From Monoglobus pectinilyticus (GTDB taxonomy: Bacteria; Bacillota; Clostridia; Monoglobales; Monoglobaceae), in contig NZ_CP020991.1 of assembly GCF_002874775.1 (NCBI RefSeq), positions 476,917 to 540,916 of the forward strand: a stretch of 64,000 nucleotides of DNA, given 5' to 3'. The notes below the pieces were generated by a model. That model searched no databases. It saw only the letters and a list, made by a program, of their open reading frames with translations, and had not been told where the DNA came from. Position 1 is the first letter of the stretch. The number at the start of each line of letters is the position of its first letter. The translations under genes and the position numbers were made by a program. Positions 21,495 through 45,821 of the stretch are shown piece by piece.

Positions 21495-21809
21495 GTTTTT
21501 TGCTTTGATAATTACAATATTCTCAAACCTTGACCAACAATTGATATAGGATTATTGAGTTTTATTACTCTATAAATTTACACTACTCTCAAACTAGTTT
21601 GCTGTTTTCTGCATTAATTACACTGTTTTACTACCCTATAAATTTACACTACTCTCAAACAGACATTTTCATTTTTTATTCTCCTTATATGTTTTACTAC
21701 CCTATAAATTTACACTACTCTCAAACGGATGAGCAAGGGTGTAAACGCTGGGAAGAGTTTTACTACCCTATAAGTTTTACTACCCTATAAATTTACACTA
21801 CTCTCAAAC
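21495..21809 (-). CRISPR. type II-A CRISPR array, 4 spacers
   Basis: The 36-nt repeat on the transcribed strand begins GTTTGAGAGTAGTGTAAATT and ends GGGTAGTAAAAC. From the leader: full repeat 21774-21809, a 17-nt repeat fragment 21757-21773, spacer A 21727-21756, repeat 21691-21726, spacer B 21661-21690, repeat 21625-21660, spacer C 21595-21624, repeat 21559-21594 (two changes), spacer D 21529-21558, and a decayed 34-nt repeat 21495-21528. All four spacers are exactly 30 nt. Decay at the far end and the anchor at 21810 fix the orientation. Spacer A resembles a tail gene of the resident prophage. Confidence 0.95.
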
Positions 21810-21917
21810 CTCAAATGTCAGATTTTCAGTTTGAAGCGGAGACACTACTCACCGCCGGAAATTTATAGAAAGCAAAATTATCTATTTATATTATATATTA
21901 TAATTAATATTTTTCAA
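21810..21917 (-). promoter_or_regulatory. CRISPR leader with promoter and ATTTGAG anchor
   Basis: TTGAAA (21912-21917) begins at the csn2 stop and is followed after 16 nt by TATAAT (21890-21895), which would start crRNA transcription near 21883. The last bases before the first repeat read ATTTGAG. That is the leader-anchoring sequence known to direct Cas1-Cas2 integration in type II-A systems. Confidence 0.8.
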
Positions 21918-22586
21918 TTATATTTCACATAAATCATTGTCTATTACAAGCTTTTTTTCATGTTTTAATAATGCGCGGTCTGTACTCTCAATTAAAAGCA
22001 GTTTAAGTTTATGATGAATTGCGGTTTTATAAAGAGCCTCAAGTTCAGCTTCGGGGATATAACTTTTTAAATTCACAAAAACAAATATTTTTTCGCCTTC
22101 AAATTCAGTGACTGCCAGCATATGCTCAATAATTTTTTCGGAAATGCTTAAACATTCTTCGTTGAATTTTAAACCGAAAAGTTTTAAAAGGTTAGAGATA
22201 TCAATATCATCTTCAATTGTTAAATCATAATCAAATGAATCGTATAAATTAAAAATATATTGTTTTATCTTAGCTATCATTTCTTGAGTGTTATAATAGT
22301 GCTCCTCATCGACGGCAATGTTTTTTAAAGCAGAATAAAACTTAGACGTTAACGTTCTTTCATTAATATCGAATGGTACTATTTGTGTTAATAGTTTCAT
22401 GTGTTTATGTATTTCAATAGGTATATTATCATCTGATAATACAACTCTTCCGGGGAGCCGGAGTGTTTGATTATAAATATCTGATATAATCTCAGCAAAA
22501 AAGGGCTGGTTTTCTATCACGAGTATATTTATAATATTTTCGTTAAAAACGATTTCTTCTGTTATATAAGGGTGCACGAGCATCAT
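21918..22586 (-). CDS. csn2: type II-A CRISPR adaptation protein Csn2
   Basis: A 222-residue Csn2-like protein starting [14 protein letters not shown]; the family is about 220 residues. The C-terminal part shows the family pattern [20 protein letters not shown] then [11 protein letters not shown]. Csn2 forms tetrameric rings that thread on DNA ends and is needed for spacer acquisition with Cas1-Cas2 and Cas9. Its ATG overlaps the cas2 stop by 4 nt. It marks the locus as subtype II-A. Confidence 0.9.
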
Positions 22587-22903
22587 AATATCACCAGCCT
22601 TTCATCGCTGTCTATAACATCGGAAGTGAACTTACCTGTAATAAATTCCATCCTTGAAAATTGCTTTTCTGTAACGTTCATAACTTGAACTAACCCCTTG
22701 GGCGGTCGGTTTTTCTTGATTAATTGCGTGATAGAGTTTACAATGGTTTGATTTAAAGCCATCCTGCAATAGACTGATTCCTGCAGCATGACAAAGCCGT
22801 TTTTTATTAAAAATTTTCTAAAGTGCCTGTAATCCCGCCTGTTTTCAGAGGTTTCAACGGGAAGGTCAAAAAATACGAATATTCTCATAAATCTATAACT
22901 CAT
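22583..22903 (-). CDS. cas2: CRISPR-associated endoribonuclease-fold protein Cas2
   Basis: A 106-residue Cas2 beginning [18 protein letters not shown], with the conserved ferredoxin-like first strand ending [24 protein letters not shown] and [12 protein letters not shown] follow, as in type II Cas2 proteins. It bridges two Cas1 dimers in the integrase complex. It overlaps the cas1 end by 11 nt and csn2 by 4 nt. Confidence 0.94.
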
Positions 22904-23766
22904 ATCTATAAAATTGTATTAACGATGTGTCGTTGTCATTAAGTGCGTCAAATATACTTTTGCAGTAAATTTTTATTGCGTTTAAAAAAGTATACTTGCC
23001 GCCGTCTATGTATATTGTTTCATTTAAAATATTTACTACCTTATGTTTTTCATCGGAGTTAAACATTGCAAAGTTCTCGTGATAAACAAGTCTGTCTATC
23101 AAAATTCTCAGCGGCTCCATAATATCACAGCTTAAATTAAATTGATTAAACATGTTATCATGAAATAATCCAAGCTGTGTCAGATAGCCGTTAGAAACAA
23201 CTTCACGATTTACAGCCGATAGAATTATTCTATAGCCATAGTTTAATGCTGCATTTATAGCGTTATCAGCGTTTCGATTAAAATCCATTCCGAATAATGC
23301 GTTAAAATACACTTTGGCAGCATGTCCCTCACGATTGGTTGCGTCATTAAATTCTATTTCTTTGATATAACCGCTTAGCATTTCTGCCGCCTCAATTTGC
23401 TCTACTTCACGTAACAGAAGGACTGATTGCGTATTTTTTCTGAAACTATTTCAGTCCAAACGCTAGCTTTAATATCAGAAGTCCACCCAATTTGTTTTTT
23501 ATTTTTAATGAGCAATCATGACTGCCATAAAGTGAAACGAGTTCCGATGCGGGATTACGCTTTTCATCGCAGAGAATTACTTTAATTTTTCGTGCGTTTA
23601 GCTCTGCTAAAAGACAGCCTGTTATAGAAACGGCAATATTTTCAATGATGACCATTGATATTTCATCAAGATAAATTCGTTTAGTTTCCTCGGAGCGGAC
23701 AACCATATATCCCATTTTTAAATCCAGCTTGCATCTTTTTGATATTACTACTATGCGCCAGCTCAT
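22893..23766 (-). pseudogene. cas1: cas1, disrupted by two frameshifts
   Basis: Cas1 integrates new spacers. The gene starts intact at the ATG overlapping the cas9 stop and gives the normal N-terminus (MSWRIVVISKRCKLDL). After the A6 tract at 23495-23500 the reading changes frame: IGWTSDIKASVWTEIVSEKI follows in a second frame. Near 23418-23424 it must change again to reach REVEQIEAAEMLSGYIKEIE and NDATNREGHAAKVYFNALFG in the third frame. Each change fits loss of one base from a homopolymer (A7 to A6, CCC to CC). The shifts do not cancel, so no full-length protein of about 290 residues can form. Sequencing error is an alternative. Confidence 0.88.
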
Positions 23767-26700
23767 AGGTCAAGTAGATTAGGGGACTTTTTCTCAAAAA
23801 GCCCCGTTGGCGATTGGTCAATGATTTTTATAGAGGAAAAGCTCTTCTTGTTTAAATCCATGGATATGCTAAGTATAGCAGAGCTTTGTGAACCGCCGAT
23901 TAGCTTTAAGTCAATTCCACTTGGCAGGGTGCAGTTAAAAAGTCCAAGCATTTTAAAAAGTACAATACTTCGTTCTTCAACATTGAGAGTCTCAAATACC
24001 TCTTTACCTTTTTTAACAATTTCGCTGGGGGTTTTAAACACATTGTATTTAGTGTTTTTTAATTTGTCCATCAGAATATTATATAGTTCTACGTTTTTCT
24101 CTTTGGTTATTTCATCTTTTACAGTGATTTCAAGGGTCATTTTATTAAGCCTTTGATATTCAGAATTTCTGTCATTATATTTTTCCAGGCGTTTTATGTA
24201 TTTTTCCCATTCGTATGGGAGAATTAATTGAAGGCCCCTCTTTATTTTAATTCTATCGTTGGTTTTACATGTCAAATGCGAACGGAAGCCATCTATTTCA
24301 AGCAGAGTATTATATTTAATTTTTCTGCCGCCAAGCAGCAGTTCAGGCTCAATTAAACCGTGTTTTTCACATAGATGATTTAAAACTTCTTGCTTTGATG
24401 TTAATTGACCTGCATATATTAAATCTATAGGCACAAAGGATATGGTAACTTTATCTTTTTTAATATGCTTAACCAAATAGAAATAAGTTGATGTGGCGCT
24501 GTTATATCCTCCATATTTTGATATATCCGATATATTATCTTTCTTTAAGCTGATCTGACCAAGTCCCTTTTTAAGCGGCATTATATTAAACAGCTCACCT
24601 TTTTGACAGCTGGAATATCGGACAAATCTGATATTATTTTTTTCCATTGTATTTTTAACGGTGGTTAAACTGGAGCCATCTTTAAGCCATGCGGTATCAT
24701 TGCCGCGAATAATGTCATGCTTTAAAAGTGAATCTAATTTAAGTGAATATTTTTGTCCGCTTTTAATAAAGTTTAAAGGATTATTTGTGTATTTAACGTA
24801 TTGAACATTACCCATGACTATATTCAAATATGCGTCTTTCGCGTGATGCAAATCATTGACAGACCTGCATTTAAGCATATCATATGTTTGCCTAAACTCG
24901 GATACAAGCCGGGCTTTGACATAAACAATTTGCGTGTCGGGGAACATTTCCTCTAGTAAATGAGCGATAGCTTTAGTGGATTGCTGCGTTTCAACAATTT
25001 GGCGATTGATAAATCCAGCCAGCTCTTCATCAGTGAATTCGGTGTCCCTTTCAAGCCGGTGAAGCTTTTCTTTACTTATCAAATTGCCTTTTGCAAGTTT
25101 CTCCCACATGGATTTCATATTATGCCTTATCTCGCTTGAAATCGGGTATTTATCTCCTTTTTTTGCGTTTTCTTCTGATAGCACAAGAACTTTATTATCA
25201 AGTGAATCATCTTTTTTTCTTGACCTTGGATGAATGTGGTCCACATCATATGCCTTACTTGCAAGGTTGCTGATATCAATGGATTTACCCGAATACATGC
25301 ATTTTCCAAGCTGAGTAAAATAGAGAAACAGCCGTTCGCTGCGCAACTCGCCGTCAGCTTTCGGGAATAATTGTTTTTTTAATTCTCCAACTTCATCTTC
25401 ACCATAATTTTTATACATTTCAAGTATAAGGTCGCGTCTGGATTTTGTGCGCTTTTTTTCACCTTCTCCGCGCGCCATTTCAATAAATATTCTCTTTGGA
25501 GGCGTGGGCATAATATACTTTAATTCTTTAACAATGTCAAGGGTTCTTAGAATAGGGCGCTTAACGGCGTTGGATATGTACATTTCATTTAGCCGGTCTA
25601 TAACGTTTTTGGGATAAGCATTATAGTATTCCTTTGCTTGCTTCTTTACATTTGATGAATATCCATAGCTTTGGGACAGCAGCTCCATAAGGTTTTTATT
25701 GGTCTCCCAAAGCATGGTGATTATATTTGGATTAACAACTTCGCCGGTTTTGGGGTCAATATCAAAGACCTCTGTTAAAAACTCCCTTGAGAGTCGGCCG
25801 AAATCTTTATAATTCGATTTTGCAATCTTTTTAATAACTTCATCGGAAAGCGTATAGTTTTCCTTAAGCCATTTTTTAATCCTTAATTTATCGTTTGAAA
25901 AAGTTATCTTTTCAATTATTTTTTCTGCGTCTTCTTCTGTCAGCATGCCTGATTCAATCAACGGTTTAAAATCTCTGAGCGGCTTTAAGGAGGATTTAAC
26001 CGTTATATCAATGCCCGTAATAGAGTCTTTGTCTTCATAACAGCCGTGGGAACGCAAGGTATCTTTAATATGTTTTAATGTGACTCTGTCGTGCTTTAAG
26101 AATACCTCATTATATATTAATTTCTTACATTCAACAGTGATGGGTTTGTTGTTGATTTTTATATTGTTGATTTCATTTAAAACATTAAATCTGCAGTATA
26201 GAAGTGAATTTTTGGGCAGAACATTTTTGCCCGGAAGATATGTGCACTTGCACGTCATTCTTCTGATAAATTCCTCTTCGCTTGCGTCTTCATCTACCAT
26301 ATCTTTAAAATTCCACGGATATATTTTTCCCTCTGCTTTTCGTTTCATCCATGCAAAGTTACTTTTATCTGATGAAACTAATGGTCCGACATAATAGGGT
26401 ATTCTAAACTCCATAAGGCTTAAAATTTTGTCTTTAACAGAGCCGTATTCATCAGAATCATTTAGAAAATCAAGATATGCTGATGCGTTATTAAGTATTA
26501 AATTAAGCTCGTACCAATAAAGCTGATAAGGAATAACGCGGTTATCAGAATTGACCTGTTTAGGGCAAAAGCTTGATAAGTCAAGACGGTTTAACATATC
26601 ATCAAATTTAGAGAGGTCAGCATTATCGCATTTTGTTTCTTTAAATATGCCTTTTATGTATTTACAAAAATCTTCAGGCGATGCTTTTTTAAGGTCAGAT

Positions 26701-27848
26701 GGTATAGTTTTGTTTTTTGATTTATAGTCGTTGGTGTTATACGAATATGCAAGATAATTAGGAAGTTTGCTGTCAGCAATGCGGAACACATAGTCATACT
26801 TTTCGGGAATATATTTTTTAACGGCGTACTTTAAAAAGGCTAAATCTGATTTATGCTGTTCATAAATTTCTTTTTTAGCTTCTGAAATGCAACTCTTTTC
26901 TTTAAGAATCCCGCTTAGCAATGACCAGTCATATATTGCTTTTATTGAAGCTAAAAGGTCGGAATCTCCGTCATCGAGCGCGGGGATAAGCGACTCAAAT
27001 AAGTCGTCGAAGTTATCGTCATTAAAGGTTATAGAATTTGTTTCTAATTCCTTATAGCTTTCGTTTAGAAATAAATCTGACAATTTTGCCTTACCGCCAA
27101 CAATTAACTTAATGGCGGTTACCGGATTAATAGCAGACTCTTCGGTAAGCGTTGGCTTTTTGCCGTCCCAAAGCAAGAGCTTAAAATCACGTTCCTTTGC
27201 TGTTTTGGTTATATTACGCTTTAATATTTCAGCAAACTTTTCTGATGAGCATTCCCATGGCTGCGCTTTGTCTGCGCTATTAAACCAGTTTGTAAATACT
27301 TGATAAACTTTGTCGAAGTTCAGCACTTCTGAAATATTGTCTTTATCAACGCTGAACAGAAAATGACCCCTATGCGCCAGTATATATGCGCAGGCAAGGT
27401 AAACAAGCCGCACATCGTGAGGTGAAGTATTCTTCATAAGTTCATCAATCAAATGGTGGATTGTAGGATATTCAGAAAAATATTCTTTATCTGTGTAATT
27501 TATATCATTAAAATAGATATTTTGTGTGCCGGTTGACCTATCCTCCGGGTATAATGCGCTTTGTTTTAAGCGTATAAAAAAATCCGGATCGATTTCCGCT
27601 ATGGGCTTTGCCATTAATTCCTGCAAAAGAGATATGCGCTGCTGCCGTCTGTCAAGGCGCCTGCGGCTTGTTCTAAAGCTTCGCCTGTCCTCGCATTGGT
27701 TGGCCGGGAAAAAAAGATGAACGCCCCACATGGCGTTGCTTTTATATTTTAAAATATTATAGCCAGTATCTGTAACAGCCCAACCCACAGAGTTTGTACC
27801 TATGTCAAGCCCCAAAAGCCAATCGCCATAAAAATTTTTCTTTTGCAT
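23763..27848 (-). CDS. cas9: Cas9 RNA-guided endonuclease
   Basis: An intact 1361-residue type II-A Cas9. Domains: RuvC-I with LGLDIGTNSVGWAV (catalytic Asp15), arginine-rich bridge helix CEDRRSFRTSRRRLDRRQQR (about residues 52-71), recognition lobe (about 80-730), RuvC-II with RIFIEMARGEGEK, HNH with YDVDHIHPRSRKKDDSLDNK, RuvC-III with LHHAKDAYLNIVMGN, and a C-terminal PAM-interacting domain ending at NLLDL. All catalytic residues appear present, so target cutting should still work. An AGGGAG site precedes the ATG. The stop overlaps the cas1 start as ATGA. A divergent tracrRNA lies upstream. Confidence 0.97.
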   Translation of the reverse strand: MQKKNFYGDWLLGLDIGTNSVGWAVTDTGYNILKYKSNAMWGVHLFFPANQCEDRRSFRTSRRRLDRRQQRISLLQELMAKPIAEIDPDFFIRLKQSALYPEDRSTGTQNIYFNDINYTDKEYFSEYPTIHHLIDELMKNTSPHDVRLVYLACAYILAHRGHFLFSVDKDNISEVLNFDKVYQVFTNWFNSADKAQPWECSSEKFAEILKRNITKTAKERDFKLLLWDGKKPTLTEESAINPVTAIKLIVGGKAKLSDLFLNESYKELETNSITFNDDNFDDLFESLIPALDDGDSDLLASIKAIYDWSLLSGILKEKSCISEAKKEIYEQHKSDLAFLKYAVKKYIPEKYDYVFRIADSKLPNYLAYSYNTNDYKSKNKTIPSDLKKASPEDFCKYIKGIFKETKCDNADLSKFDDMLNRLDLSSFCPKQVNSDNRVIPYQLYWYELNLILNNASAYLDFLNDSDEYGSVKDKILSLMEFRIPYYVGPLVSSDKSNFAWMKRKAEGKIYPWNFKDMVDEDASEEEFIRRMTCKCTYLPGKNVLPKNSLLYCRFNVLNEINNIKINNKPITVECKKLIYNEVFLKHDRVTLKHIKDTLRSHGCYEDKDSITGIDITVKSSLKPLRDFKPLIESGMLTEEDAEKIIEKITFSNDKLRIKKWLKENYTLSDEVIKKIAKSNYKDFGRLSREFLTEVFDIDPKTGEVVNPNIITMLWETNKNLMELLSQSYGYSSNVKKQAKEYYNAYPKNVIDRLNEMYISNAVKRPILRTLDIVKELKYIMPTPPKRIFIEMARGEGEKKRTKSRRDLILEMYKNYGEDEVGELKKQLFPKADGELRSERLFLYFTQLGKCMYSGKSIDISNLASKAYDVDHIHPRSRKKDDSLDNKVLVLSEENAKKGDKYPISSEIRHNMKSMWEKLAKGNLISKEKLHRLERDTEFTDEELAGFINRQIVETQQSTKAIAHLLEEMFPDTQIVYVKARLVSEFRQTYDMLKCRSVNDLHHAKDAYLNIVMGNVQYVKYTNNPLNFIKSGQKYSLKLDSLLKHDIIRGNDTAWLKDGSSLTTVKNTMEKNNIRFVRYSSCQKGELFNIMPLKKGLGQISLKKDNISDISKYGGYNSATSTYFYLVKHIKKDKVTISFVPIDLIYAGQLTSKQEVLNHLCEKHGLIEPELLLGGRKIKYNTLLEIDGFRSHLTCKTNDRIKIKRGLQLILPYEWEKYIKRLEKYNDRNSEYQRLNKMTLEITVKDEITKEKNVELYNILMDKLKNTKYNVFKTPSEIVKKGKEVFETLNVEERSIVLFKMLGLFNCTLPSGIDLKLIGGSQSSAILSISMDLNKKSFSSIKIIDQSPTGLFEKKSPNLLDL

Positions 27849-27878: not shown

Positions 27879-27884
27879 TTGCTT

Positions 27885-28014
27885 ATAGGATTTACTACCC
27901 TATAAATTTACACTACGAGTTCAAATAAAAATTATTTCAAATCGTTCTTTATGTTCGCACAAGAGTTGTGCATTTTATTTGTAACTTTTGCCTGCTTTTT
28001 TAAGCAGGCTTTTT
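27885..28014 (+). ncRNA. tracrRNA
   Basis: The anti-repeat contains 26 bases (27891-27916, beginning TTTACTACCC and ending CACTAC) that are exactly complementary to the crRNA repeat. Then comes a bulge and GAGTTCAAAT, an A/T-rich nexus, a GCACAAGAGTTGTGC hairpin, and a terminator GCCTGCTT-TTTT-AAGCAGGC with a T5 tract (27990-28014). It pairs with pre-crRNA for RNase III processing and Cas9 loading. The predicted primary transcript is about 130 nt from near 27885. Confidence 0.93.
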
Positions 28015-28133
28015 ATTTTATAGTATAATTTTACTATAACTTACGAAATTTGTCAATATATATAATAAATAAGATAAAAATATTTTAAATAAGCGATTTT
28101 TAAAAGAAAGAACCTTCTAAAGTAGAAAATAAA

Positions 28134-33670: not shown

Positions 33671-33747
33671 CGAGGTGTGGCTCAGTTTGGTAGAGTACTA
33701 CGTTCGGGACGTAGGGGCCGCAGGTTCAAATCCTGTCACCTCGACCA
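33671..33747 (+). tRNA. tRNA-Pro (anticodon CGG)
   Basis: A 77-nt cloverleaf with acceptor CGAGGTG/CACCTCG, D arm GGCTCAGTTTGGTAGAGT-like, anticodon stem CTACG/CGTAG with loop TTCGGGA (anticodon CGG, reading CCG), T loop GTTCAAATC and an encoded CCA. The prophage begins directly after it, so its 3' end is the likely attachment core. Confidence 0.97.
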
Positions 33748-33756
33748 TTTATAAAA

Positions 33757-33796
33757 AGCCTTAAATGCACGTATTTAGCGCATTTAAGGCTTTTGT
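33757..33796 (+). terminator. terminator after tRNA-Pro
   Basis: GCCTTAAATGC (33758-33768) pairs with GCATTTAAGGC (33780-33790), followed by TTTTGTGTT. It also works on the reverse strand. Confidence 0.85.
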
Positions 33797-33847
33797 GTTA
33801 TATATAACACTTTTTTAAGTTTAGTATAATTAATTAAAATTCATTAT

Positions 33848-33869
33848 AAATGTCAGTCAAATGTCAGTC
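33848..33869. repeat. two tandem copies of an 11-bp repeat near the tRNA
   Basis: AAATGTCAGTC occurs twice in direct succession about 100 bp from the tRNA end. Short direct repeats beside an attachment site can be integrase arm-binding sites. That reading is inference. Confidence 0.5.
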
Positions 33870-33897
33870 AGAAATATAAGCATATTATTCACATTAT

Positions 33898-33932
33898 AAA
33901 AAAGGATAGCTTGTATACTATCCTTTTTCATT
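33898..33932. terminator. bidirectional terminator at the prophage left end
   Basis: AAAAGGATAG (33900-33909) pairs with CTATCCTTTT (33918-33927), with A and T tracts on either side. It lies just past the Xre gene stop and insulates the prophage from the tRNA. Confidence 0.8.
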
Positions 33933-33964
33933 TTAAAATTATTTAGTTACAAATAATTATTGTG

Positions 33965-34234
33965 TTATTTCTTAGACTTTGTAACTCTGTCCTTAGGCAT
34001 ATAACCTAACTTTTGAATATCAGAAACAAACTTATTTATATCTATCTCGCCATTTATTATAAAGTTAATTAGGCTAATAGAAGATGGAAACCTCTTCCCG
34101 CTTTCAATATCTGCATATTGTCTTAATGACATACAGCATTTTTCAGCCATCTTTCCCTGACTGAGATTAAATTCTTTTCTTTTAAAATACAGGATATTAC
34201 TAAAACACATTTTCAAAATGTCAACAGGTTCCAT
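33965..34234 (-). CDS. Xre-family helix-turn-helix regulator
   Basis: An 89-residue protein with an XRE-type DNA-binding domain at about residues 10-65: LSQGKMAEKCCMSLRQYADI is the helix-turn-helix and ESGKRFPSSISL follows. The tail is basic. The start region overlaps a 13-bp inverted repeat, and a 28-bp palindrome that could be its operator lies 13 bp upstream. It is the last prophage gene before the tRNA, an unusual place for an immunity repressor, so it may control a local lysogeny or lysis function instead. Confidence 0.8.
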   Translation of the reverse strand: MEPVDILKMCFSNILYFKRKEFNLSQGKMAEKCCMSLRQYADIESGKRFPSSISLINFIINGEIDINKFVSDIQKLGYMPKDRVTKSKK

Positions 34235-34347
34235 AATTCCACACCCTTTGATAAAATATACAAATATTTTATCAATTTATCTCATAAACACATATGTGAT
34301 TAGTCTCATATTTTTGTTTTTTAATAAATATTTTGGTGTGGAATTAT
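34233..34347. promoter_or_regulatory. palindromic operator region upstream of the Xre gene
   Basis: A perfect 12-bp-arm palindrome TTGATAAAATAT-ACAA-ATATTTTATCAA spans 34248-34275. Around it, GGTGTGGAATTAT occurs as an inverted pair at 34233-34245 and 34335-34347, so the same start-site sequence ends in ATG on both strands. The forward copy opens a 22-codon frame (MKIKYFNTCYISF...) that runs into the amidase stop region. Confidence 0.55.
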
Positions 34348-34382
34348 GAAAATTAAATATTTTAATACTTGTTATATCTCAT

Positions 34383-35192
34383 TTATTCCCTATATACCCC
34401 AGCTCTATCATTGACTATAAACATTCGTATTAGGTCTTCTGTAAGACCTAACTTGCCTTCCTCATCACCTTTTAAAAATCCCTTGTCAACTAACTTAGTA
34501 ATTGTTGGTCTTGCCCATTCAGGCATATTTTCGTCCACGTAATCATAAATCATTGGATTTTCCACTTTTTCTAATCTTTCATTCAGTTCTTCATATTCTC
34601 TGCTCACTAGTTTGTCCTCGCTTTCTAATTTATATTCTATTCCCAAATAGTCGCAAATTCCTTTATAAATTCCCACTGCACATTTATATTTTCCGTCATC
34701 GCTGGCTAAAAACCTGTTGTCATCATAGTTATCTATAAATGCAGTCTCTACCAATATAGCCGGCATATTTGTGTGTTTTATAACCGCAAAATTGGCAGAT
34801 TTGACACCTCTGTTATATCTTTCCGTCTCCGCGGCCATATGCGGCTGTACACATTCCGCTAACACCTTACCCTGATTACTGCCTGTGCAATAATATGTCT
34901 CACAGCCATATGCTTTCGTATTTGCCGCATTGCAGTGGATAGAAACAAATATATCAGCGTCCCAGCTGTTGGCGGCGTTGTATCTGCCTGCAAGACTTCC
35001 ATTTAAACTGCTTGATACCGTATCAGTTATATTTTCACGGCTCATTTTTACCGTTTGTCCGCTAACCAATAATAATTCTCTAAGGATTATTCCCACCTGC
35101 ACAGATACATCCTGCTCTTTTAGTCCGTAACCTACGGCTCCCGTATCGTTTCCGGTTGGGTTGTGCCCCGGGTCTATGTATATCTTTGCCAT
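34383..35192 (-). CDS. phage endolysin, N-acetylmuramoyl-L-alanine amidase (Amidase_3)
   Basis: A 269-residue endolysin that cuts the bond between muramic acid and the stem peptide. The catalytic domain (1-180) has all zinc and catalytic residues: His10 in IYIDPGHN, Glu in GLKEQDV, His in FVSIHCNAA and Glu in LVETAFIDN. The C-terminal module (about 214-269, MIYDYVDENMPEWARP to NDRAGVYRE) is shared with two tail-region proteins and is a likely wall-binding or assembly domain. There is no signal peptide, so it depends on the holin. A GGAGG site precedes the ATG. Confidence 0.94.
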   Translation of the reverse strand: MAKIYIDPGHNPTGNDTGAVGYGLKEQDVSVQVGIILRELLLVSGQTVKMSRENITDTVSSSLNGSLAGRYNAANSWDADIFVSIHCNAANTKAYGCETYYCTGSNQGKVLAECVQPHMAAETERYNRGVKSANFAVIKHTNMPAILVETAFIDNYDDNRFLASDDGKYKCAVGIYKGICDYLGIEYKLESEDKLVSREYEELNERLEKVENPMIYDYVDENMPEWARPTITKLVDKGFLKGDEEGKLGLTEDLIRMFIVNDRAGVYRE

Positions 35193-35267
35193 TTATATTC
35201 CTCCAATCTATTATATTATAACAAAAAAAGAATGCCACTTAGTGACATCCCGTAATGCTATTTTAAC

Positions 35268-35296
35268 TTGATTTTTTATGTATATTCTTGTATAAT
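35268..35296 (+). promoter_or_regulatory. promoter of putative type I toxin mRNA 1
   Basis: TTGATT (35268-35273), a 17-nt spacer and TATAAT (35291-35296) on the forward strand, opposite to the surrounding lysis genes. Transcription should start near 35303. Confidence 0.8.
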
Positions 35297-35378
35297 ACTG
35301 TCGAGCAGGTAAGAGGAAATTGAAGGACGGTTGTCATCTCCATATGCTGTTTCTCACAGCTGAAAGGAGGTGTAGCTT

Positions 35379-35453
35379 ATGTGGAAATACTTATTAAAAG
35401 TAATTGTTTCAATTATAATAATTTTTGTGATTGTCTCCATAAAAGCAGTATAA
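35379..35453 (+). CDS. 24-residue hydrophobic peptide, candidate type I toxin
   Basis: Reads MWKYLLKVIVSIIIIF then VIVSIKAV: a short basic start and one membrane-spanning helix, like Fst/TxpA/BsrG-type toxins. A strong AAAGGAGGTG site lies 6 nt upstream. The mRNA has its own sigma-A promoter, and its two ends can pair (ACGGTTGTCAT at 35327-35337 with ATGACAACCGT at 35497-35507). A hairpin at 35502-35516 could end it. An antisense RNA starts face to face. It lies between holin and endolysin genes but on the other strand. A small accessory holin is an alternative. Confidence 0.72.
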   Translation: MWKYLLKVIVSIIIIFVIVSIKAV

Positions 35454-35527
35454 CCGCCCTCTTGCACAGGACGGTTATATAAATTTTAACCCGACTATGA
35501 CAACCGTTTAACGGTTATCTCTTATCT
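35454..35527 (-). ncRNA. candidate antitoxin RNA 1, antisense to the toxin mRNA 3' end
   Basis: A consensus promoter on the reverse strand would start RNA near 35527, opposite the 3' part of the toxin mRNA. The hairpin CCGTCCT...AGGGCGG (35454-35474), followed by TTATACTGCTTTT, may end it at the toxin stop. The 3' end is less certain than in module 2, and read-through would transcribe the endolysin gene. Confidence 0.6.
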
Positions 35528-35533
35528 GCTATT

Positions 35534-35562
35534 ATTATATACTTATGTATTCAATTTGTCAA
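35534..35562 (-). promoter_or_regulatory. consensus promoter of antitoxin RNA 1
   Basis: On the reverse strand TTGACA (35557-35562), a 17-nt spacer and TATAAT (35534-35539): a perfect sigma-A match, 3 nt after the holin stop. Confidence 0.85.
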
Positions 35563-35565
35563 CCG

Positions 35566-35814
35566 CTAATTTTCGTTTTCTTTAAGCTCTGTCATTACCT
35601 CATCCGCCTTTATAGCCTCCTGGGTAAAACTGTTATTCTTCCACCAGCCCCATACTGCCGCACCAATTGTAAATAATAGGCTTATAACCTGATATATATC
35701 ATCGTCCGCTATATTTAGCACCTGCTTACCGCACATAGCCAATACCTGATTTGCTAGTGCTAATATTAATACTATGGTTCTTGCTATTGTTCCTGCCGTT
35801 ATGTTATTCTTCAT
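35566..35814 (-). CDS. phage holin, SPP1 family-like
   Basis: An 82-residue protein with two transmembrane helices (TIARTIVLILALANQVLAM and YQVISLLFTIGAAVWGWWKN) and a charged C-terminus, the pattern of SPP1-type class II holins. Holins open the membrane at a set time so the endolysin reaches the wall. It lies 14 nt after the XhlA gene and is separated from the amidase by the toxin-antitoxin module. Confidence 0.88.
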   Translation of the reverse strand: MKNNITAGTIARTIVLILALANQVLAMCGKQVLNIADDDIYQVISLLFTIGAAVWGWWKNNSFTQEAIKADEVMTELKENEN

Positions 35815-35828
35815 GCTTTTTTGCCTCC

Positions 35829-36110
35829 TTATTTTAATAAATTTGTGATTGCGAATCCTACAAATCCGCTTACAGTCGCCGTTATTAGTGCTGTTATAAT
35901 AACCGTGAGAATCTGTGAAGGTCGTCCGGCTATAACGTCTATTTTTTCTTTAACATCAGAAATATCTTCTTTGAGATATTTAGTTTCAATAGCTAAAGAT
36001 TTCACTGATTGGGTCAGCTCTTCAATGTTGTCTATCCTATGATGAGCAGACTTGACGGAGGATTCAACCGCCGTCAGCCGCTCTCTGATTGCCGCTTCGT
36101 TTTCGTCCAT
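35829..36110 (-). CDS. xhlA: XhlA-type hemolysin/lysis accessory protein
   Basis: A 93-residue protein with an N-terminal coiled-coil region (heptads through about residue 60, e.g. NIEELTQSVKSLAIETKYL) and one C-terminal transmembrane helix (ILTVIITALITATVSGFVGF). This matches XhlA of PBSX, which acts with a holin in cell lysis. It follows the large tail protein by 11 nt. Confidence 0.88.
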   Translation of the reverse strand: MDENEAAIRERLTAVESSVKSAHHRIDNIEELTQSVKSLAIETKYLKEDISDVKEKIDVIAGRPSQILTVIITALITATVSGFVGFAITNLLK

Positions 36111-36121
36111 GTTCTGCCCTC

Positions 36122-38473
36122 CTAATTAGTTTTATAATATTCAATAGTTATTGTTTTCCCGGCAGTAATTCCTTTTGTGTACAAAAATAGGTATTCCGTG
36201 CCTGATTCTAACGTAAAATCACCCTCAAACGTATATATTGCGCTTGCGGCGTTAAACGTGCCTGTTGGCGCGATAAACATAACCGTACCATTTTTATCAT
36301 CTACATTATTGATAGCTGTCTTAAGCTGGAATGTACAAGCGTATTCAGCTTTTTCCACAGTAGCACGAAAATGATACGCACCTGCCGATAAAGGGATACT
36401 GTACCATGTTCGTTCGATAGCTTCTGATTCAGAGGTGTGCTCTATCAACATATTGTATTTGCTTCCTATATGCAAGGTTGCAATATCTGACGTTAGCGTT
36501 TCCCCCATACTACTTGTTACAATACATCTGTATTTACGTAAATTATGATACGGCTCTACTGTAAATTGCAATATGCTTGATGTGCCGTCTGCACAATTAG
36601 TCCATATTCCAACGGGGTCATCACCTCTCACGTCAAGCCACTGCCATTTATAAGTTAAACCTGTACCTTTGGCGATTATTGACATATTTGCAGTTTCTCC
36701 GACCTCTGTTGTTACATCTTGCGGCTGTTGTGTAATTTCTGCGGCTTCCGCCGCCGCTATCGCTGTTACCGTTAATGTGCAACTAAGTCCTTTATATTTT
36801 ATATGATACGTATTTTCGCCCTCTGCCAACGTTAAATCCGTTTCTTCTACAGCATAATCGGTTACAGAATGTGTTTTACCACTCGTCATTGTCACAATAA
36901 CTGTTATAAGCGACTTATCCAATGTGTCACCTGCTATGTTTTGAGTTTTTCCGTAACTTGCCGATATGCTCGCTTCCGTGTCTTCAAATAATCCTAATAC
37001 TGTAGCCCTTTGCACGATATATCTCACAGTATCATCATCAGGCTTGCATTTAGTATCACCATTGGGCATAACCCGAAACATATTGTCTCCCTCGCCTGTA
37101 TAATACACAGGAGCCTTGAGCCTTGCGGCTCTCGAAAACGTTTCTATGCGTATTTTTTTGCTAATAGCATAATCAATAATATTTCCCAACGTGTCGGCAC
37201 TAGGTTGATTTGCATTTGCATGACTGCATAAAATAAGCCATTGCTTGTTGGCAATGGCTGTATCAATTTGAGATTTAGCACTTGCCAAACTCGTTGAACC
37301 GCTTTGCAATGTGAATCTTGATATTGCCATAGGTTCGCTTATTTCATCATTTAGTCCCGTATCCCCGCTAATCAACGTCATTCCATATTTGGCATATCGC
37401 TTCGCAACTTTTTTCTTAATTTGTTGAGCCGTACCCCATGGATACACCATACAGTTATAATCAAGTCCGTTTTGTCTAAATAATCTATCAGCGTCACCAA
37501 ATTGATGTTCAAGTTGTTCCTCGTTTAAGTTTTCGCCTGTCCGAAACACTTTCACATCATGACTGTATGTGTGACTTTGCATGTCGAAGCCATCGTGCAC
37601 AAGTTCTTTTATTTGTGTCCAGCTTAAAGCCTTGTAAGGGTCACCGCTTGTTGTTGTACCTGTTGGTGTTTCTGCTCTGCAAGCTACGACTGCAAAACTG
37701 CACCTAACACCCTTATCTTTATATATCGGCACAAAATTATTTAAGAATTCAATGGACCCGTCATCATCAACTATAGTAAGAACCGCTCCGTCGTATACCT
37801 CATTGCCAATATTGTTACTATCGTTCAGGTGATGATTATATGTATTATTAATTTGTGTCTGTAGCTCCGTATCAGCAGTAGTGATTTTCGCACTGCTCCA
37901 CGTGGTCTCTGATGAGGTTTCGGAATCATTTATAGCTGTTATATCTGCTCCGTCTTTGCCGTCTGCTCCGTTTATTCCGTCTTTGCCCGGCTGACCTTTT
38001 AGGCTTTCTAACCATTCACTTTCAGTTCCGTTAAATCCATTCTCTACGGCTATTTCATAAGCTGATTTTCCGTTTTTTTCTGTTCCTCCACCGCTATTAT
38101 CTAATCTATCTAATATTTGCTCATATACGTTTTGTGTTGGTTCAGGTGGTGTTTCTCCCTCACAATATCCACTCTTTATAACAGATACTTTGCATGTGTT
38201 AGTTGTTATTCGCATTCCGTTATTCGTGCCATATGCAGATAAATTAAATCCAGGACTTTTTATAACTTCATGCGGCACAATCGCTATTTCGTTTTCATCC
38301 AAAAGAACATTATAGCTATATCCATCATATAAAAAAACAACTGTCTTTTTAGTGCCTTTCCATTCATCAGAAAAATTAAAACGGACAGCCAAATATTTTA
38401 TGCTGTCCGCCACTATTAAATTTCTGCTGGTTCTGCGTAAAATTTGCGAATCAACTTTATAATCAATTATCAT
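36122..38473 (-). CDS. baseplate/tail protein with BppU-like, NodB deacetylase and Ig-like domains
   Basis: A 783-residue multidomain protein. Residues 1-110 resemble a BppU N-terminal baseplate-anchoring domain (RFNFSDEWKGTKKTVVFLY). About 140-175 is a short collagen-like GxY stretch (GQPGKDGINGADGKDGAD). About 225-465 is a NodB-type polysaccharide deacetylase domain with IVDDDGS and the metal motif HTYSH. Two Ig-like domains follow (about 515-570, and 580-680 with YKWQWLD and YRCIVTSS), then a beta-rich tip. It probably deacetylates host surface glycan during adsorption; that role is inferred. Confidence 0.8.
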   Translation of the reverse strand: MIIDYKVDSQILRRTSRNLIVADSIKYLAVRFNFSDEWKGTKKTVVFLYDGYSYNVLLDENEIAIVPHEVIKSPGFNLSAYGTNNGMRITTNTCKVSVIKSGYCEGETPPEPTQNVYEQILDRLDNSGGGTEKNGKSAYEIAVENGFNGTESEWLESLKGQPGKDGINGADGKDGADITAINDSETSSETTWSSAKITTADTELQTQINNTYNHHLNDSNNIGNEVYDGAVLTIVDDDGSIEFLNNFVPIYKDKGVRCSFAVVACRAETPTGTTTSGDPYKALSWTQIKELVHDGFDMQSHTYSHDVKVFRTGENLNEEQLEHQFGDADRLFRQNGLDYNCMVYPWGTAQQIKKKVAKRYAKYGMTLISGDTGLNDEISEPMAISRFTLQSGSTSLASAKSQIDTAIANKQWLILCSHANANQPSADTLGNIIDYAISKKIRIETFSRAARLKAPVYYTGEGDNMFRVMPNGDTKCKPDDDTVRYIVQRATVLGLFEDTEASISASYGKTQNIAGDTLDKSLITVIVTMTSGKTHSVTDYAVEETDLTLAEGENTYHIKYKGLSCTLTVTAIAAAEAAEITQQPQDVTTEVGETANMSIIAKGTGLTYKWQWLDVRGDDPVGIWTNCADGTSSILQFTVEPYHNLRKYRCIVTSSMGETLTSDIATLHIGSKYNMLIEHTSESEAIERTWYSIPLSAGAYHFRATVEKAEYACTFQLKTAINNVDDKNGTVMFIAPTGTFNAASAIYTFEGDFTLESGTEYLFLYTKGITAGKTITIEYYKTN

Positions 38474-38475
38474 AA

Positions 38476-38604
38476 TTATTCATTCTCCAACGCCTTAATT
38501 TTTTCTGCCTGCTTTTCCGTCAATACTCCGAGTGATATATAACGCATAAGCTGACTATTGGTTACATATCCTTTTTCGTATCTGTTTTTAATCTTTTCAT
38601 ACAT
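38476..38604 (-). CDS. xkdX: XkdX family protein
   Basis: A 42-residue protein, MYEKIKNRYEKGYVTNSQLM and then LGVLTEKQAEKI, matching the XkdX family found beside tail fibre genes of PBSX-like phages; the function is unknown. A GGAGGGGGTG site precedes the ATG. The start overlaps the upstream gene by 8 nt, and the stop TAA is 2 nt before the next ATG. Confidence 0.85.
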   Translation of the reverse strand: MYEKIKNRYEKGYVTNSQLMRYISLGVLTEKQAEKIKALENE

Positions 38605-39034
38605 TGCTTTCACCCCCTCCCAAAAGTTGTAATTCGAGGTCTGTTATGTATTGTCCCTGTTCGATTAATTCTAACTCTAAATCAGTCTGAGCCTGACCCA
38701 ATGTTTTAATTTCATTAAGCAGATTTGCATTGTTAAGACGGGATTTTTCCAAAAGATATTTTATATATTCTGTTTCCCCCATTTCATAAGCCTGAATAAT
38801 TTCTGTATCAAACGAGAACTCTTTACCGTCAAGCCAAATACAGTCTGATACATCAAGAGGAACAATCTCAGCTGGCAAGTCGCTGAGTTGCTGATGTAGT
38901 TCCAATGACTGATTAGTTTCAACCTCGTCCAAATGATAAAATTCAAGTTTTGTACCATTCTCATTTGTTACAACCGTTTTATATTTGCATATATGGCAAA
39001 TACCATTTATTAGTCTGTATTCCATTTTAGACAC
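38597..39034 (-). CDS. tail-fibre region protein of unknown function
   Basis: A 145-residue protein with a small N-terminal beta-rich part (MEYRLINGICHICKYKTV), a middle section DVSDCIWLDGKEFSFDTEII and a C-terminal helical, coiled-coil-like end (residues 105-140). Its position between the fibre and XkdX fits XkdW-like or fibre-assembly proteins, but no family is recognised with certainty. It starts 1 nt after the fibre stop. Confidence 0.6.
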   Translation of the reverse strand: MSKMEYRLINGICHICKYKTVVTNENGTKLEFYHLDEVETNQSLELHQQLSDLPAEIVPLDVSDCIWLDGKEFSFDTEIIQAYEMGETEYIKYLLEKSRLNNANLLNEIKTLGQAQTDLELELIEQGQYITDLELQLLGGGESNV

Positions 39035-39035
39035 C

Positions 39036-40451
39036 TCACTTTTTTAAATATGTAACTTTTAAATTAGGCAAACTTGAATCTGCTGCTATATCTCCAAATG
39101 TACCTTCGACATTATCAATATATATGTTAGTTAAATTTCCACACATAGAAAATGCGTTAGTGGCAAGAGATGTACAAGCATTAGGTATAAAGACCGTTTT
39201 AAGTCCATAACTAGCCCAAAAGCCTTGACTTTTAATTGTCTTGACTTTTGGCATGATTATTGTTGTCATGCCTGAATTATCGTCTATCGAACGTGATTCA
39301 ACTGTTTCAAGATTTGGTGCATAAACAATTCCTTTTAATTTATTATCAGGATTATTATTGTCAGAGTATTGATATATTTGAGTTACAGTATCAGAAATAA
39401 CGGTAATAGTGTTACCCAGCATTTCGAGTAATGGAACTATGTTAATCCCAGTATTAGCAAGCATTTGTATCAGCATTATCAAGCTATTATTTTGTTCCGT
39501 TATTTTTGATAGTAATTCAGTTGTGTTATTTTCCGCTTCATTGTCTAATTCATTAATTGCTTCAACGATGTTTGACCGATTAGTAGTATATAATCGGCTC
39601 AACCTGCCAACATCTTTCAAATAATATTCATCGTCTGTGGTATCATATCTAACTATTTTATATTTTCTAAATTGCAGACTTTCACTTTCGCTGTTACTGC
39701 CTTCGCATATTTGCACAGCATTTTGAGCCAAACTTTCCGCTACATCTCCTATTGCAACGGAATCAATCCCGGAAGCAATTGACCCATGTCCAATCGCCAC
39801 ACTGTCATTTGCCCCTTCTGCTCCTGCGCCAATTGCTATTCCATATTCTCCGGTGGAGCCTATACCACTTCCTATTGATATACTTCCGAGTTTTCCGGCC
39901 TCCGCTCCTCCGGCTATAAATCCGTTATTTGTAACTTTATCCGCTTTTTTTGATATTGACGTTATCAACTCATTTATCGCTGTAACGATATTTGTTTTAG
40001 CCGTTGTAGTAAGATTTGATAAATTGCCTATCTTTTGTTCTATGTTTGATATATTAGACATTGTTGCTATCGGAGAGAAATTACCCCAATTCGCCGGAAC
40101 ACCTAACACACCCAAACGGACCGAGACTTGATTTTCATGAAATAAAACTTGCATTACTACTGTTTCCTTTGTATCTTCTGCCGTATTAGCAGATAATACA
40201 TCAAAAACAAAAAGCGTAAAATCACCCTTTTGCTTCATAGACGGATTATTCCATATTCCTTTATAAAAACCCGGGCTTGTTTGTGTATTAAATACGCTTT
40301 CAGTCCCGTTTAATGTTCCTATATCTTCAATTTCTGTTTTTGTATTCAAGACATCGTCAATTTTATCAAAATTATTATTAAAATCCATAATGTTATAAAT
40401 GTCTGTCAGTGATGGTTTTTTTAATCCATATACTTTTGTTGTTGTAGCCAT
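39036..40451 (-). CDS. tail fibre with YadA-head-like and BspA-type LRR repeats
   Basis: A 471-residue fibre. Residues 1-150 form a phage N-terminal anchor (KKPSLTDIYNIMDFNNNFDK). About 170-260 has trimeric-adhesin head repeats with AIG/SVAIG units (IAIGAGAEGANDSVAIGHGS). About 290-370 is helical. The C-terminal 100 residues resemble BspA leucine-rich repeats (TIIMPKVKTI, VFIPNACTSLATNAF). The fibre probably binds the host surface. It starts 2 nt before the end of the upstream ymfQ-like gene region. Confidence 0.78.
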   Translation of the reverse strand: MATTTKVYGLKKPSLTDIYNIMDFNNNFDKIDDVLNTKTEIEDIGTLNGTESVFNTQTSPGFYKGIWNNPSMKQKGDFTLFVFDVLSANTAEDTKETVVMQVLFHENQVSVRLGVLGVPANWGNFSPIATMSNISNIEQKIGNLSNLTTTAKTNIVTAINELITSISKKADKVTNNGFIAGGAEAGKLGSISIGSGIGSTGEYGIAIGAGAEGANDSVAIGHGSIASGIDSVAIGDVAESLAQNAVQICEGSNSESESLQFRKYKIVRYDTTDDEYYLKDVGRLSRLYTTNRSNIVEAINELDNEAENNTTELLSKITEQNNSLIMLIQMLANTGINIVPLLEMLGNTITVISDTVTQIYQYSDNNNPDNKLKGIVYAPNLETVESRSIDDNSGMTTIIMPKVKTIKSQGFWASYGLKTVFIPNACTSLATNAFSMCGNLTNIYIDNVEGTFGDIAADSSLPNLKVTYLKK

Positions 40452-40453
40452 TA

Positions 40454-41002
40454 TTAACCTCCCAGCACGTTTTCTTTTAATCCTTGATGTGTAAACTTGC
40501 TTAAATATGCGTGAGTATACAACCCCAACCTTTCGTGCGTATTATATAACAAGTCGCTGTCTATAACCATATTTAGCGGTACCATTCTATCTATCATTTT
40601 TTCGACTTCTGCAATTTTGTTTTTTCGGCTTAAAGATAATCTAACCGTAACCTTGCTATTTTCCACATCTATATCAACCGTAACGTTGCCCGTTCCGACA
40701 AGCATTTCAAGCTTTTCCAGCAGCGTTCTTTCAGTGTATGGTGTGTCACCTAAATATATTGATTTTATTCTGAATCTTCTATCGTCCAGCGTGTCCGTCT
40801 CACGCCGAGAAATATTGAGCATATCCTCCCAACGCCTACACCCCTGTTCATCAAGAGTATCGAAAAAAAAGTTGTTTGTCAATTTTTCGGTTTCGGATTC
40901 AATAAGTTCAAATTCTACATCATAAGTTTTACATAATTCTACGAACTCCGTTATATCCTGCAAAAGCTCAGGCAAATTTTTAAGTGTATTTATTTTTTCC
41001 AT
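40454..41002 (-). CDS. YmfQ/DUF2313-like tail (baseplate) protein
   Basis: A 182-residue protein in the position after the baseplate J gene, with the DEQGCRRWEDMLNI segment (about residues 50-63), RRFRIKSIYLGDTPYTE and a C-terminal VPLNMVIDSD region typical of YmfQ-like (DUF2313) proteins that cap or trim the baseplate wedge. Bases 40824-40853 match CRISPR spacer A at 23 of 30 positions. The gene follows xkdT by 6 nt. Confidence 0.82.
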   Translation of the reverse strand: MEKINTLKNLPELLQDITEFVELCKTYDVEFELIESETEKLTNNFFFDTLDEQGCRRWEDMLNISRRETDTLDDRRFRIKSIYLGDTPYTERTLLEKLEMLVGTGNVTVDIDVENSKVTVRLSLSRKNKIAEVEKMIDRMVPLNMVIDSDLLYNTHERLGLYTHAYLSKFTHQGLKENVLGG

Positions 41003-41008
41003 ATTTTA

Positions 41009-42733
41009 TTACTCCGTTATATATACCGCTGACACATTTTTTACATATGTTTTTATGGCATTGGTATGTTGTAAATTGTCGGTAAGCTGTATATTAAGAT
41101 ACAGTGTAGACGGGTCAACAGTTGCCGGGAACCCTGTAACCGTATGTTCAGTCCCATTGTATACGCATGTAAAATTTTGACGTGTAGAAAAATCAATTTT
41201 AAAAGTAACATTAACCCACTCACCTAAAACTTTATCATTGCCTGTATATACTTTGTCTGCTCCATCACTTGATTTAGAATTTCCACCTATTATTTTAATT
41301 TCTGTTTCGTTTTGTTCATATCCGCTTAATCTTCCATATGTATATGAATTTCCTCCGTCACTTGATTTAATTGTTTTATTTCCGCTTAAATCAATAAAAA
41401 AGTTACCCATTCCCCTATTATCATTCGATTGAAAAAGGTCAAAAGAAACATTTAAATAACCTGTTGCGGTCGAAAAGTCTGACGGTTTAGTATCTAAAAG
41501 TCTGACTATATCATAAGACCAACCATTTCCTTTCACTCCAGGACCATAACAGAATTCAACAGCATTCCCACTGTCTGACGGAGAATGTGTAGCCTCTGCT
41601 GATATACCTTGAATTAATGATAACGGTTCCCAACCTGTAGAACAGTTGCTAATAATTTTACTGTCAGAAACAATAAAATTGCTCGTTGTTACCGCTTCAC
41701 CGTAAGGGTATATCTTTATGTTTCTAACGTCCAAAACCCCATTGAGACCTAATATTTTTTGTTCTAACTGTGTTATCCTAACAACAATGTTATCAGGGTC
41801 TAAATCCCCCCATGATTCATTTAACTCATCAAAATATTCTGAAACCGAATTTTGAAAACCGTCTGCAATATCGCTCCATGTAAAACCGTCTTGATACTCT
41901 ATATCAGCAATAACCTCAATCCCCATTGTTCCAACCGCTGATACAGTTGCCCTATGTCCTATAGGAGCCATTCCCACACCGTCACCGCTGTTTATAACCG
42001 GGTCAATTAATGTCTGAACACTGTCAACTAAATCTTGAGGCGGTTCTCTATATTCGTTATCACAGATAATAATACCAACAGTACCGCCGCCGTTTGGCGT
42101 CCTTATCAATCTACAGTCTCCTACACCGTTAATTGACTTTATAAACCTTTTATAATCTGCACGGTTACCGCCGAATGACGGATTTAAAACAGTATCAAAA
42201 TACCGTGAACGAAATTTTTCGGTTTCTTCTGTGTCAGTACCGTATGTTGCAACTCCTACAATCTTTGCATTAGCAAGACCTTCAATATCGTTTATAGGTA
42301 TTAAGTCTCCTGTTTTATTGCCAATGCTTCCGGTTGTTTCACACATCATCAAATAATAGTATAGCCGTGGATTATCACCGTCCCACTTTGGACTTTCTGA
42401 CATAACAATATAATTTAACTCGCTGTTTTGCAGACTAAATCTTGTTCCCTCTGATATTTTCTTGTTAAATTCTCCCCTAACGATAGCATACGTAGCCGCA
42501 TTAAGTGTTAAGTTCTTTAACATTGCGTGTCTTTTTAGGTATTCAATGCTTGCGGTATCTGGAAATGCTTCTTTTTCTATGGCTTGCAGCATAAGGTATG
42601 TTTTGGCAAGTTCCAGCCCCACAGGAGAAACAGCGTCATAAATTATTGACCCTTGCCTTTTATCAACATTGCTTGACACCCTTTGAAGCATTCGGTTTGT
42701 TATCTCTCCAAAATTATATTCGCTTGTAATCAT
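41009..42733 (-). CDS. xkdT: baseplate J-like protein with C-terminal lectin-like domain
   Basis: A 574-residue protein. Residues 1-350 are a baseplate J/XkdT wedge protein (NRMLQRVSSNVDKRQGSIIY, RYFDTVLNPSFGGNRADYKR). From about 352 a beta-sandwich region (WEPLSLIQGISAEATHSPSD to YLNIQLTD) resembles LamG/concanavalin-type carbohydrate domains. XkdT homologues are usually near 350 residues, so the extra 220 look like an added glycan-binding part. It overlaps xkdS by 4 nt. Confidence 0.85.
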   Translation of the reverse strand: MITSEYNFGEITNRMLQRVSSNVDKRQGSIIYDAVSPVGLELAKTYLMLQAIEKEAFPDTASIEYLKRHAMLKNLTLNAATYAIVRGEFNKKISEGTRFSLQNSELNYIVMSESPKWDGDNPRLYYYLMMCETTGSIGNKTGDLIPINDIEGLANAKIVGVATYGTDTEETEKFRSRYFDTVLNPSFGGNRADYKRFIKSINGVGDCRLIRTPNGGGTVGIIICDNEYREPPQDLVDSVQTLIDPVINSGDGVGMAPIGHRATVSAVGTMGIEVIADIEYQDGFTWSDIADGFQNSVSEYFDELNESWGDLDPDNIVVRITQLEQKILGLNGVLDVRNIKIYPYGEAVTTSNFIVSDSKIISNCSTGWEPLSLIQGISAEATHSPSDSGNAVEFCYGPGVKGNGWSYDIVRLLDTKPSDFSTATGYLNVSFDLFQSNDNRGMGNFFIDLSGNKTIKSSDGGNSYTYGRLSGYEQNETEIKIIGGNSKSSDGADKVYTGNDKVLGEWVNVTFKIDFSTRQNFTCVYNGTEHTVTGFPATVDPSTLYLNIQLTDNLQHTNAIKTYVKNVSAVYITE

Positions 42734-43143
42734 ATTTCTATCACCTCATTTATTTCGAGAGTATCAGTTATTTTGCTTTGCACCAAAAAACTTACTTCAT
42801 ATTTACCGCTGCCTATATGATTTATTTTGAAGGTATTAACATCAGTTATTCTGTCATCTTGCAACAATGCTTCATGTATACGGTTTTGAAGCTCAGGTAT
42901 AACAAAGTCTTTTCTCATACCGTACAAAGGGTCTATATCGGTGCCATAATCCCAATTATATATTGGATAACGGTACCTTTGTGTCGCAAGAATTAAATAT
43001 ATAGACTGCTTCAATGCTTCCACACCGTCAATTGTCCCAATAATACACTTGTTCTTTAAGTCTATACCATATGTCATTGAGGGATATATAACGACTTTAG
43101 TATCAACTATCTTTTCTCTTGGGATAGAAATAACGGGTAGCAT
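42730..43143 (-). CDS. xkdS: XkdS-like (DUF2634) baseplate protein
   Basis: A 137-residue gp25/DUF2634-type baseplate component, with CIIGTIDGVEALKQSIYLIL and RYRYPIYNWDYGTDIDPLYG, the conserved core of XkdS. These proteins link the tail hub to the wedges. It overlaps both neighbours (xkdR by 1 nt, xkdT by 4 nt), so the baseplate genes are translationally coupled. Confidence 0.9.
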   Translation of the reverse strand: MLPVISIPREKIVDTKVVIYPSMTYGIDLKNKCIIGTIDGVEALKQSIYLILATQRYRYPIYNWDYGTDIDPLYGMRKDFVIPELQNRIHEALLQDDRITDVNTFKINHIGSGKYEVSFLVQSKITDTLEINEVIEI

Positions 43144-43466
43144 TAGACCACCCCCAATACAATATGTCTTTGTCCGCCTTGCATTTTAAGTAACGCTACC
43201 TTATCCCCCATTTTTAAGCTATTATCAATTTCAATCGTGTGTGTATGAGACGGGTTTCCCCCGCTGGTCGTAGTATAAGTATTTTTTCTAAAACTTGATG
43301 GTAATATCAATAGTTCCCCATAAATTGGTTTTTCGTATCCTACATCAATCTGCAACGGTTCAGTGGATACAACCGTTCCAAATACAGCATTAGCCGGAAC
43401 GGTTTCCTTAACCGCTTGTACTGCAACACGCTTTACCGCCCGTGTAAATTCTGTCATATCAATCAT
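43143..43466 (-). CDS. xkdR: XkdR-like (DUF2577) protein
   Basis: A 107-residue protein of the DUF2577 family: TVVSTEPLQIDVGYEKPIYG is an OB-fold-like strand set, and SHTHTIEIDNSLKMGDKVAL ends in the usual GDKV. It is small and cytoplasmic until assembly in the baseplate. It overlaps xkdQ by 4 nt. Confidence 0.88.
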   Translation of the reverse strand: MIDMTEFTRAVKRVAVQAVKETVPANAVFGTVVSTEPLQIDVGYEKPIYGELLILPSSFRKNTYTTTSGGNPSHTHTIEIDNSLKMGDKVALLKMQGGQRHIVLGVV

Positions 43467-45541: not shown

Positions 45542-45560
45542 TTGCGTTCACCTCTTTTTT

Positions 45561-45588
45561 GCACAAAAAAGACACCCAATAAGGTGTC
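45561..45588 (-). terminator. terminator of toxin mRNA 2
   Basis: On the reverse strand GACACCT-TATT-GGGTGTC (45571-45588) is followed by TTTTTT. It abuts the antisense promoter. Confidence 0.85.
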
Positions 45589-45616: not shown

Positions 45617-45621
45617 AAAGC

Positions 45622-45761: not shown

Positions 45762-45821
45762 AATATCAACTCCCCTCTTTGGGAAGTCAGAATAACCGCC
45801 AATCACTCATTAACTTTTTTT

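Follow-up and report, generated by a model that had tools for sequence, protein, structure and literature searches.

A leader-proximal CRISPR spacer resembles a tail gene of the resident prophage in Monoglobus pectinilyticus

Spacers and resident prophages

Spacers that match resident prophages are reportedly treated by Nobrega and co-workers (2020). Such matches are already known: a survey of Lactobacillus reports 52 (3.6%) intact prophages matched by spacers of the same host (PMC8269257), and self-targeting spacers at 100% are described from a type I array of Oenococcus sicerae (PMC9867325). The locus analyzed here, in a 64,000-nucleotide stretch of the Monoglobus pectinilyticus chromosome (the window), is a clean new example. 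It resembles both published cases in that an array spacer matches a prophage of the same chromosome (PMC9867325, PMC8269257), and differs from O. sicerae as described (PMC9867325) in that the identity is 77% rather than 100% and the array is type II-A rather than type I.

Two accounts of type II-A systems are relevant to the locus itself. The group 1 loci described in PMC5382924 share with it a 36-nt repeat, ATTTGAG before GTTT, and the gene order cas9, cas1, cas2, csn2; the same source gives ATTTGAG as the group 1 leader motif, in 87 of 167 loci. The present locus departs from that description in its broken cas1, its three spacers and a 17-nt repeat fragment beside the first of them. FrCas9 of Faecalibaculum rodentium is likewise of type II-A, with mature spacers of mainly 21-22 nt, a PAM of NNTA and, as here, a tracrRNA upstream of cas9 transcribed opposite to the cas genes (PMC8931148).

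The CRISPR-Cas locus

Read on the minus strand, the array runs leader, repeat 1, 17-nt fragment, spacer A, repeat 2, spacer B, repeat 3, spacer C, terminal repeat.

21810..21917, minus strand: leader region, taken as the whole gap between repeat 1 and csn2 (the true leader may differ in length), with ATTTGAG at repeat 1
21774..21809, minus strand: repeat 1, on the leader side, 36 nt
21757..21773, minus strand: identical 17-nt fragment of the repeat 3' end, between repeat 1 and spacer A
21727..21756, minus strand: spacer A, leader-proximal, 30 nt; its plus strand reads DEQGCKRWE
21691..21726, minus strand: repeat 2, identical to repeat 1
21661..21690, minus strand: spacer B
21625..21660, minus strand: repeat 3, identical to repeat 1
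21595..21624, minus strand: spacer C
21559..21594, minus strand: terminal repeat, degenerate, with 2 differences

The leader end at repeat 1 reads GACATTTGAG. In two sister arrays of the genus (G010 and G005), AAATTTGAG stands immediately 5' of the first repeat, and in a third (G007) the same string sits ten bases ahead of the matched repeat. The ATTTGAG leader end fixes the orientation of the array and makes spacer A the leader-proximal one. An earlier note on this DNA had called spacer A the newest, which agrees with the leader end on the csn2 side and the degenerate repeat at the far end. The 17-nt fragment suggests, however, that sequence was deleted or partly duplicated immediately upstream of spacer A. 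A more recent spacer may thus have been lost at this place, and "newest" is better read as "newest surviving". Neither the fragment nor the broken cas1 had been remarked upon in that note.

Spacer B resembles a ribosome site and gene start, with AGGAG followed by ATGAAAATG. No source for spacers B and C was found in IMG/VR (PAM-side patterns) or in 38 family genomes (at most 3 mismatches), and both matched phages weakly. For spacer B there were 247 phage records at E <=1, the best among the matches listed having E 0.01, and these resemble A-rich ribosome-site stretches.

The cas genes and the predicted tracrRNA lie beyond the leader.

21918..22586, minus strand: csn2, open (Pfam Cas_Csn2, 83.8 bits)
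22583..22903, minus strand: cas2, open (Pfam CRISPR_Cas2), adjoined by csn2
22893..23381, minus strand: C-terminal piece of a broken cas1 (Pfam Cas_Cas1; 57% identity to residues 130-288 of a sister Cas1)
23446..23766, minus strand: N-terminal piece of the broken cas1 (unmatched in Pfam when taken alone; 69% identical to the sister Cas1 over its residues 1-93)
23763..27848, minus strand: cas9, 1361 aa, open, catalytic motifs present (NCBIfam cas_Csn1, 889 bits)
27882..28020, plus strand: predicted tracrRNA, with an anti-repeat matching the repeat, hairpins and a terminator-like end

The RuvC and HNH motifs of Cas9 are kept (D15, E790, D870/H871, H1002/D1005), the roles of these residues being presumed from SpCas9. 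Its best match among solved structures is 9jwk (772 bits, 1372 aa), which, judging from its length, may be FrCas9. The duplex of anti-repeat and repeat is predicted to fold at -39 kcal/mol. A search of 20000-29000 against Rfam gave 3 matches, all far below their gathering scores, one of which (MicX) overlies the predicted tracrRNA.

The Cas9 motifs, csn2 beside cas2, the leader motif with a 36-nt repeat and the tracrRNA (predicted from sequence and folding) are those of type II-A; the intact cas1 of that type is missing. By sequence, this is an ordinary type II-A CRISPR-Cas system, a decayed member and not another type. In a translated comparison with the open Cas1 of G005, the two cas1 pieces and the stretch between them fall in three different frames, the frame changing twice. 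A sequencing error in cas1 is conceivable. All four Cas proteins are reported to be required for type II-A adaptation in vivo (PMC5382924), and with cas1 broken by two frame changes the CRISPR memory is probably frozen.

The prophage and its tail gene

33721..64000, no strand assigned: prophage, extending past the end of the window to roughly 69.5 kb (window coordinates), with a 32-bp att core at 33721-33752
40454..41002, minus strand: Gp48/YmfQ-like tail protein, 182 aa (Pfam Phage_Mu_Gp48, PHROG 521)
40824..40853, plus strand: match to spacer A, 23/30, inside the prophage tail gene

The gene for tRNA-Pro(CGG), at 33671-33747, overlaps the 32-bp core with its end. The core is repeated at 69474 (window coordinates; L021 16391-16422), just beyond an integrase gene, and its presence at both ends delimits a prophage of approximately 35.8 kb in tRNA-Pro. 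The earlier note had linked array and prophage by their place within one 20-kb stretch. Their closeness needs no functional link, since integration occurred at a tRNA-Pro gene.

An IMG/VR contig of 34,229 bases, IMGVR_UViG_2833582041_000002, has proteins 100% identical to the prophage's Gp48, baseplate J and terminase; by that comparison the two elements are the same or nearly so. Searches of IMG/VR for relatives of the prophage by gp48 and by baseplate J returned this contig and no other. The terminase was found at 60 loci including its own; among the 59 others, 30 records were searched and gp48 was present in 4, at 18-32% identity. A DNA search of 35200-43190 in phages gave only matches covering about 1%. 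No family named as anti-CRISPR was matched by 9 prophage proteins compared with PHROGs or by 9 compared with NCBIfam.

The label "ymfQ-like", given to the tail gene in the earlier note, fits Pfam Phage_Mu_Gp48 and PHROG 521: the protein scores 75.5 bits against a curated cut-off of 37.4, and its neighbor is Baseplate_J. A second Gp48-like gene, 29% identical, is located at G000:C1:714195-714707 (L026) and suggests another prophage in the same genome.

The match to spacer A

The minus-strand reading of spacer A (21727-21756) is identical to the plus strand of 40824-40853 at 23 of 30 positions. The second-best sites of the window reach 19/30. Six of the seven differences are at third codon positions and one at a second position, and six are transitions. 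The hypergeometric P for at least six of seven differences in third positions is 0.0021, for a test chosen post hoc, after the pattern had been seen. The two sequences share the peptide DEQGC(K/R)RWE, with a single residue of nine differing (K in the spacer, R in the prophage). Numbering from the PAM end places the mismatches at 1, 7, 10, 18, 19, 22 and 28, three of them among the ten PAM-proximal bases. The match, its codon pattern, the shared peptide and the PAM-proximal mismatches were all as the earlier note had described them.

True self-targeting is marked by a near-perfect protospacer with a PAM in the same genome. Here the best site in the window is 23/30, and at no more than 3 mismatches spacer A occurs in its own genome only in the array itself. 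With an identity of just 77%, this is a match to a homologue rather than true self-targeting.

The degenerate DEQGC-x-R-WE motif, allowing up to one mismatch, occurs in one of 391 genomes drawn from the class, this one, where it is confined to the spacer and the prophage. In IMG/VR the exact motif is on a single contig that has this same prophage gene and matches spacer A at 23/30. The corresponding region in five homologues reads TISGIKRWE, TASGVAVWE, NELGIERWE, TLEGIEYWE and TEQGLSKWE, with neither the D nor the C in any of them, and nine homologue loci, including the second gp48 copy of this genome, reach at most 18/30 to spacer A anywhere. Conservation across the family alone therefore does not explain the match.

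Search for the source protospacer

No perfect protospacer for spacer A was found in IMG/VR (motif, 29-nt and 18-nt PAM-side patterns), in plasmids (none at E <=1), or in phages, where none of 46 records covers 80% of the spacer. The 12 genus genomes, at no more than 3 mismatches, gave the spacer's own array, and the exact motif in 38 family genomes gave its own genome. In genome_contigs, which comprises contigs of 3 kb and longer, a relaxed motif, broad enough to include every perfect copy, gave 15 matches, with no gp48-like gene among them when the translated surroundings were read by eye; these reach 17-22/30, near the level forced by the fixed letters of the motif. The genome itself is possibly absent from several of the collections searched. 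The perfect protospacer in a ymfQ homologue proposed in the earlier note was thus not found across phages, IMG/VR, plasmids and the genus, family and class genomes, and neither was one in an unrelated element, so the source of spacer A is unproven.

Origin of spacer A

Very probably, spacer A is an ordinary type II-A spacer derived from a phage tail gene of the Gp48/YmfQ-like kind, one that encodes the protein segment also present in the resident prophage but is widely diverged at silent sites. When the codons of gp48 were redrawn from prophage usage with the protein kept (3000 draws), the best match ranged from 18 to 28, with 23 both the median and the commonest value. The observed 23 is thus what is expected if the peptide alone is common to both sequences. 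This favors a homologue well diverged at silent sites as the probable source, but it is not proof, given 30 bases and a wide spread (455 of 3000 draws reach at least 25); a less diverged source is possible. An origin from a related phage, as the earlier note proposed, is well supported by both controls, peptide and codon. The phage itself did not turn up in the collections searched, however, and the relative is probably more diverged than "related phage" suggests. The note's observation is confirmed, and its interpretation is partly supported and mostly right.

A chance resemblance between the prophage and an unrelated spacer is very improbable. Analytically, a 23/30 match is expected 0.0002 times per window and 0.01 times per genome, the latter not negligible. 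Among 54 other spacers (52 sister spacers, B and C) the best value somewhere in the window is 21/30, reached by four, namely B and three sister spacers. On the other hand, only one of 6000 shuffled versions of spacer A reached 23 (1/3000 mononucleotide and 0/3000 dinucleotide shuffles, against the window with the array masked). Codon-matched shuffles, on which the earlier note had staked its reading, seldom give such a match: 1 of 3000 codon-order shuffles of the 29 prophage genes in the window did so. At the peptide level (six frames of 35193-64000, with 29-nt spacers padded by one base), spacer A scores 54; the highest score among 2000 mononucleotide shuffles is 40, and that among the 54 other spacers is 33. 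The concentration of mismatches in third positions also argues against chance. It is improbable, though somewhat less so, that the spacer came from the prophage's own lineage, which later escaped by mutation. Spacer and prophage do share one genome, and the motif is in no other gp48-like gene across the searches made. However, CRISPR escape usually takes one or two changes, and there are 7 in 30 here, six of them at third positions, a level of difference that equals the median for random codons.

The least probable of these explanations is that the partial match is in use, with the crRNA bound to the tail gene of the prophage so that expression falls although no cut is made. Cas9 can bind partial matches without cutting, and the locus has both the Cas9 motifs and a predicted tracrRNA, but the mismatches at 1, 7 and 10, counted from the PAM end, should hinder seed pairing.

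Under the preferred origin from a diverged homologue, the DNA of spacer A would have been acquired from a phage with a homologous, silently diverged tail gene. Cutting of the resident prophage, which the earlier note expected to escape, is unlikely: of its seven mismatches, three fall in the ten bases nearest the PAM end, one of these being adjacent to the PAM. With cas1 broken, the array would no longer be updatable against this prophage. The prophage flank at the match, AGAGTATCGA, begins AGAG. The two large sister arrays, comprising 51 of the 52 extracted sister spacers, gave no phage match at E <=0.01 from which to derive a PAM. The PAM of FrCas9 itself is NNTA (PMC8931148), in contrast to AGAG in the prophage. 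If the Cas9 of the window were like FrCas9, five or six of the mismatches would lie within the guide, and AGAG would be unsuitable.

Implications

Our search for literature on synonymous or third-codon-position differences between CRISPR spacers and protospacers found none, which is no proof of absence. The case of spacer A leaves the general understanding of CRISPR unchanged. It illustrates that a spacer from an unknown source can be placed by its peptide even when its DNA is too dissimilar for the usual spacer searches to work.

A cas9 match was found in four of 12 genomes of the genus, three of the four being fragmented assemblies. In G005 (L019 5380-6249) cas1 is open and there are at least 35 spacers; in G010 (L018 4907-5094) cas1, read by eye, is mostly deleted and at least 16 spacers remain; in G007 (L020 3559-7632) the locus is without cas1, cas2 and the beginning of cas9; the fourth is the present genome, with its frame-broken cas1. 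The window itself holds a natural pair, a memory and a settled relative of what is remembered, with an array that is probably frozen. It may be, as a tentative and rather doubtful generalization, that type II-A loci in this genus lose adaptation with cas1 while possibly retaining interference, so that the memory is frozen and prophages related to the remembered phages, but diverged from them, can establish themselves.
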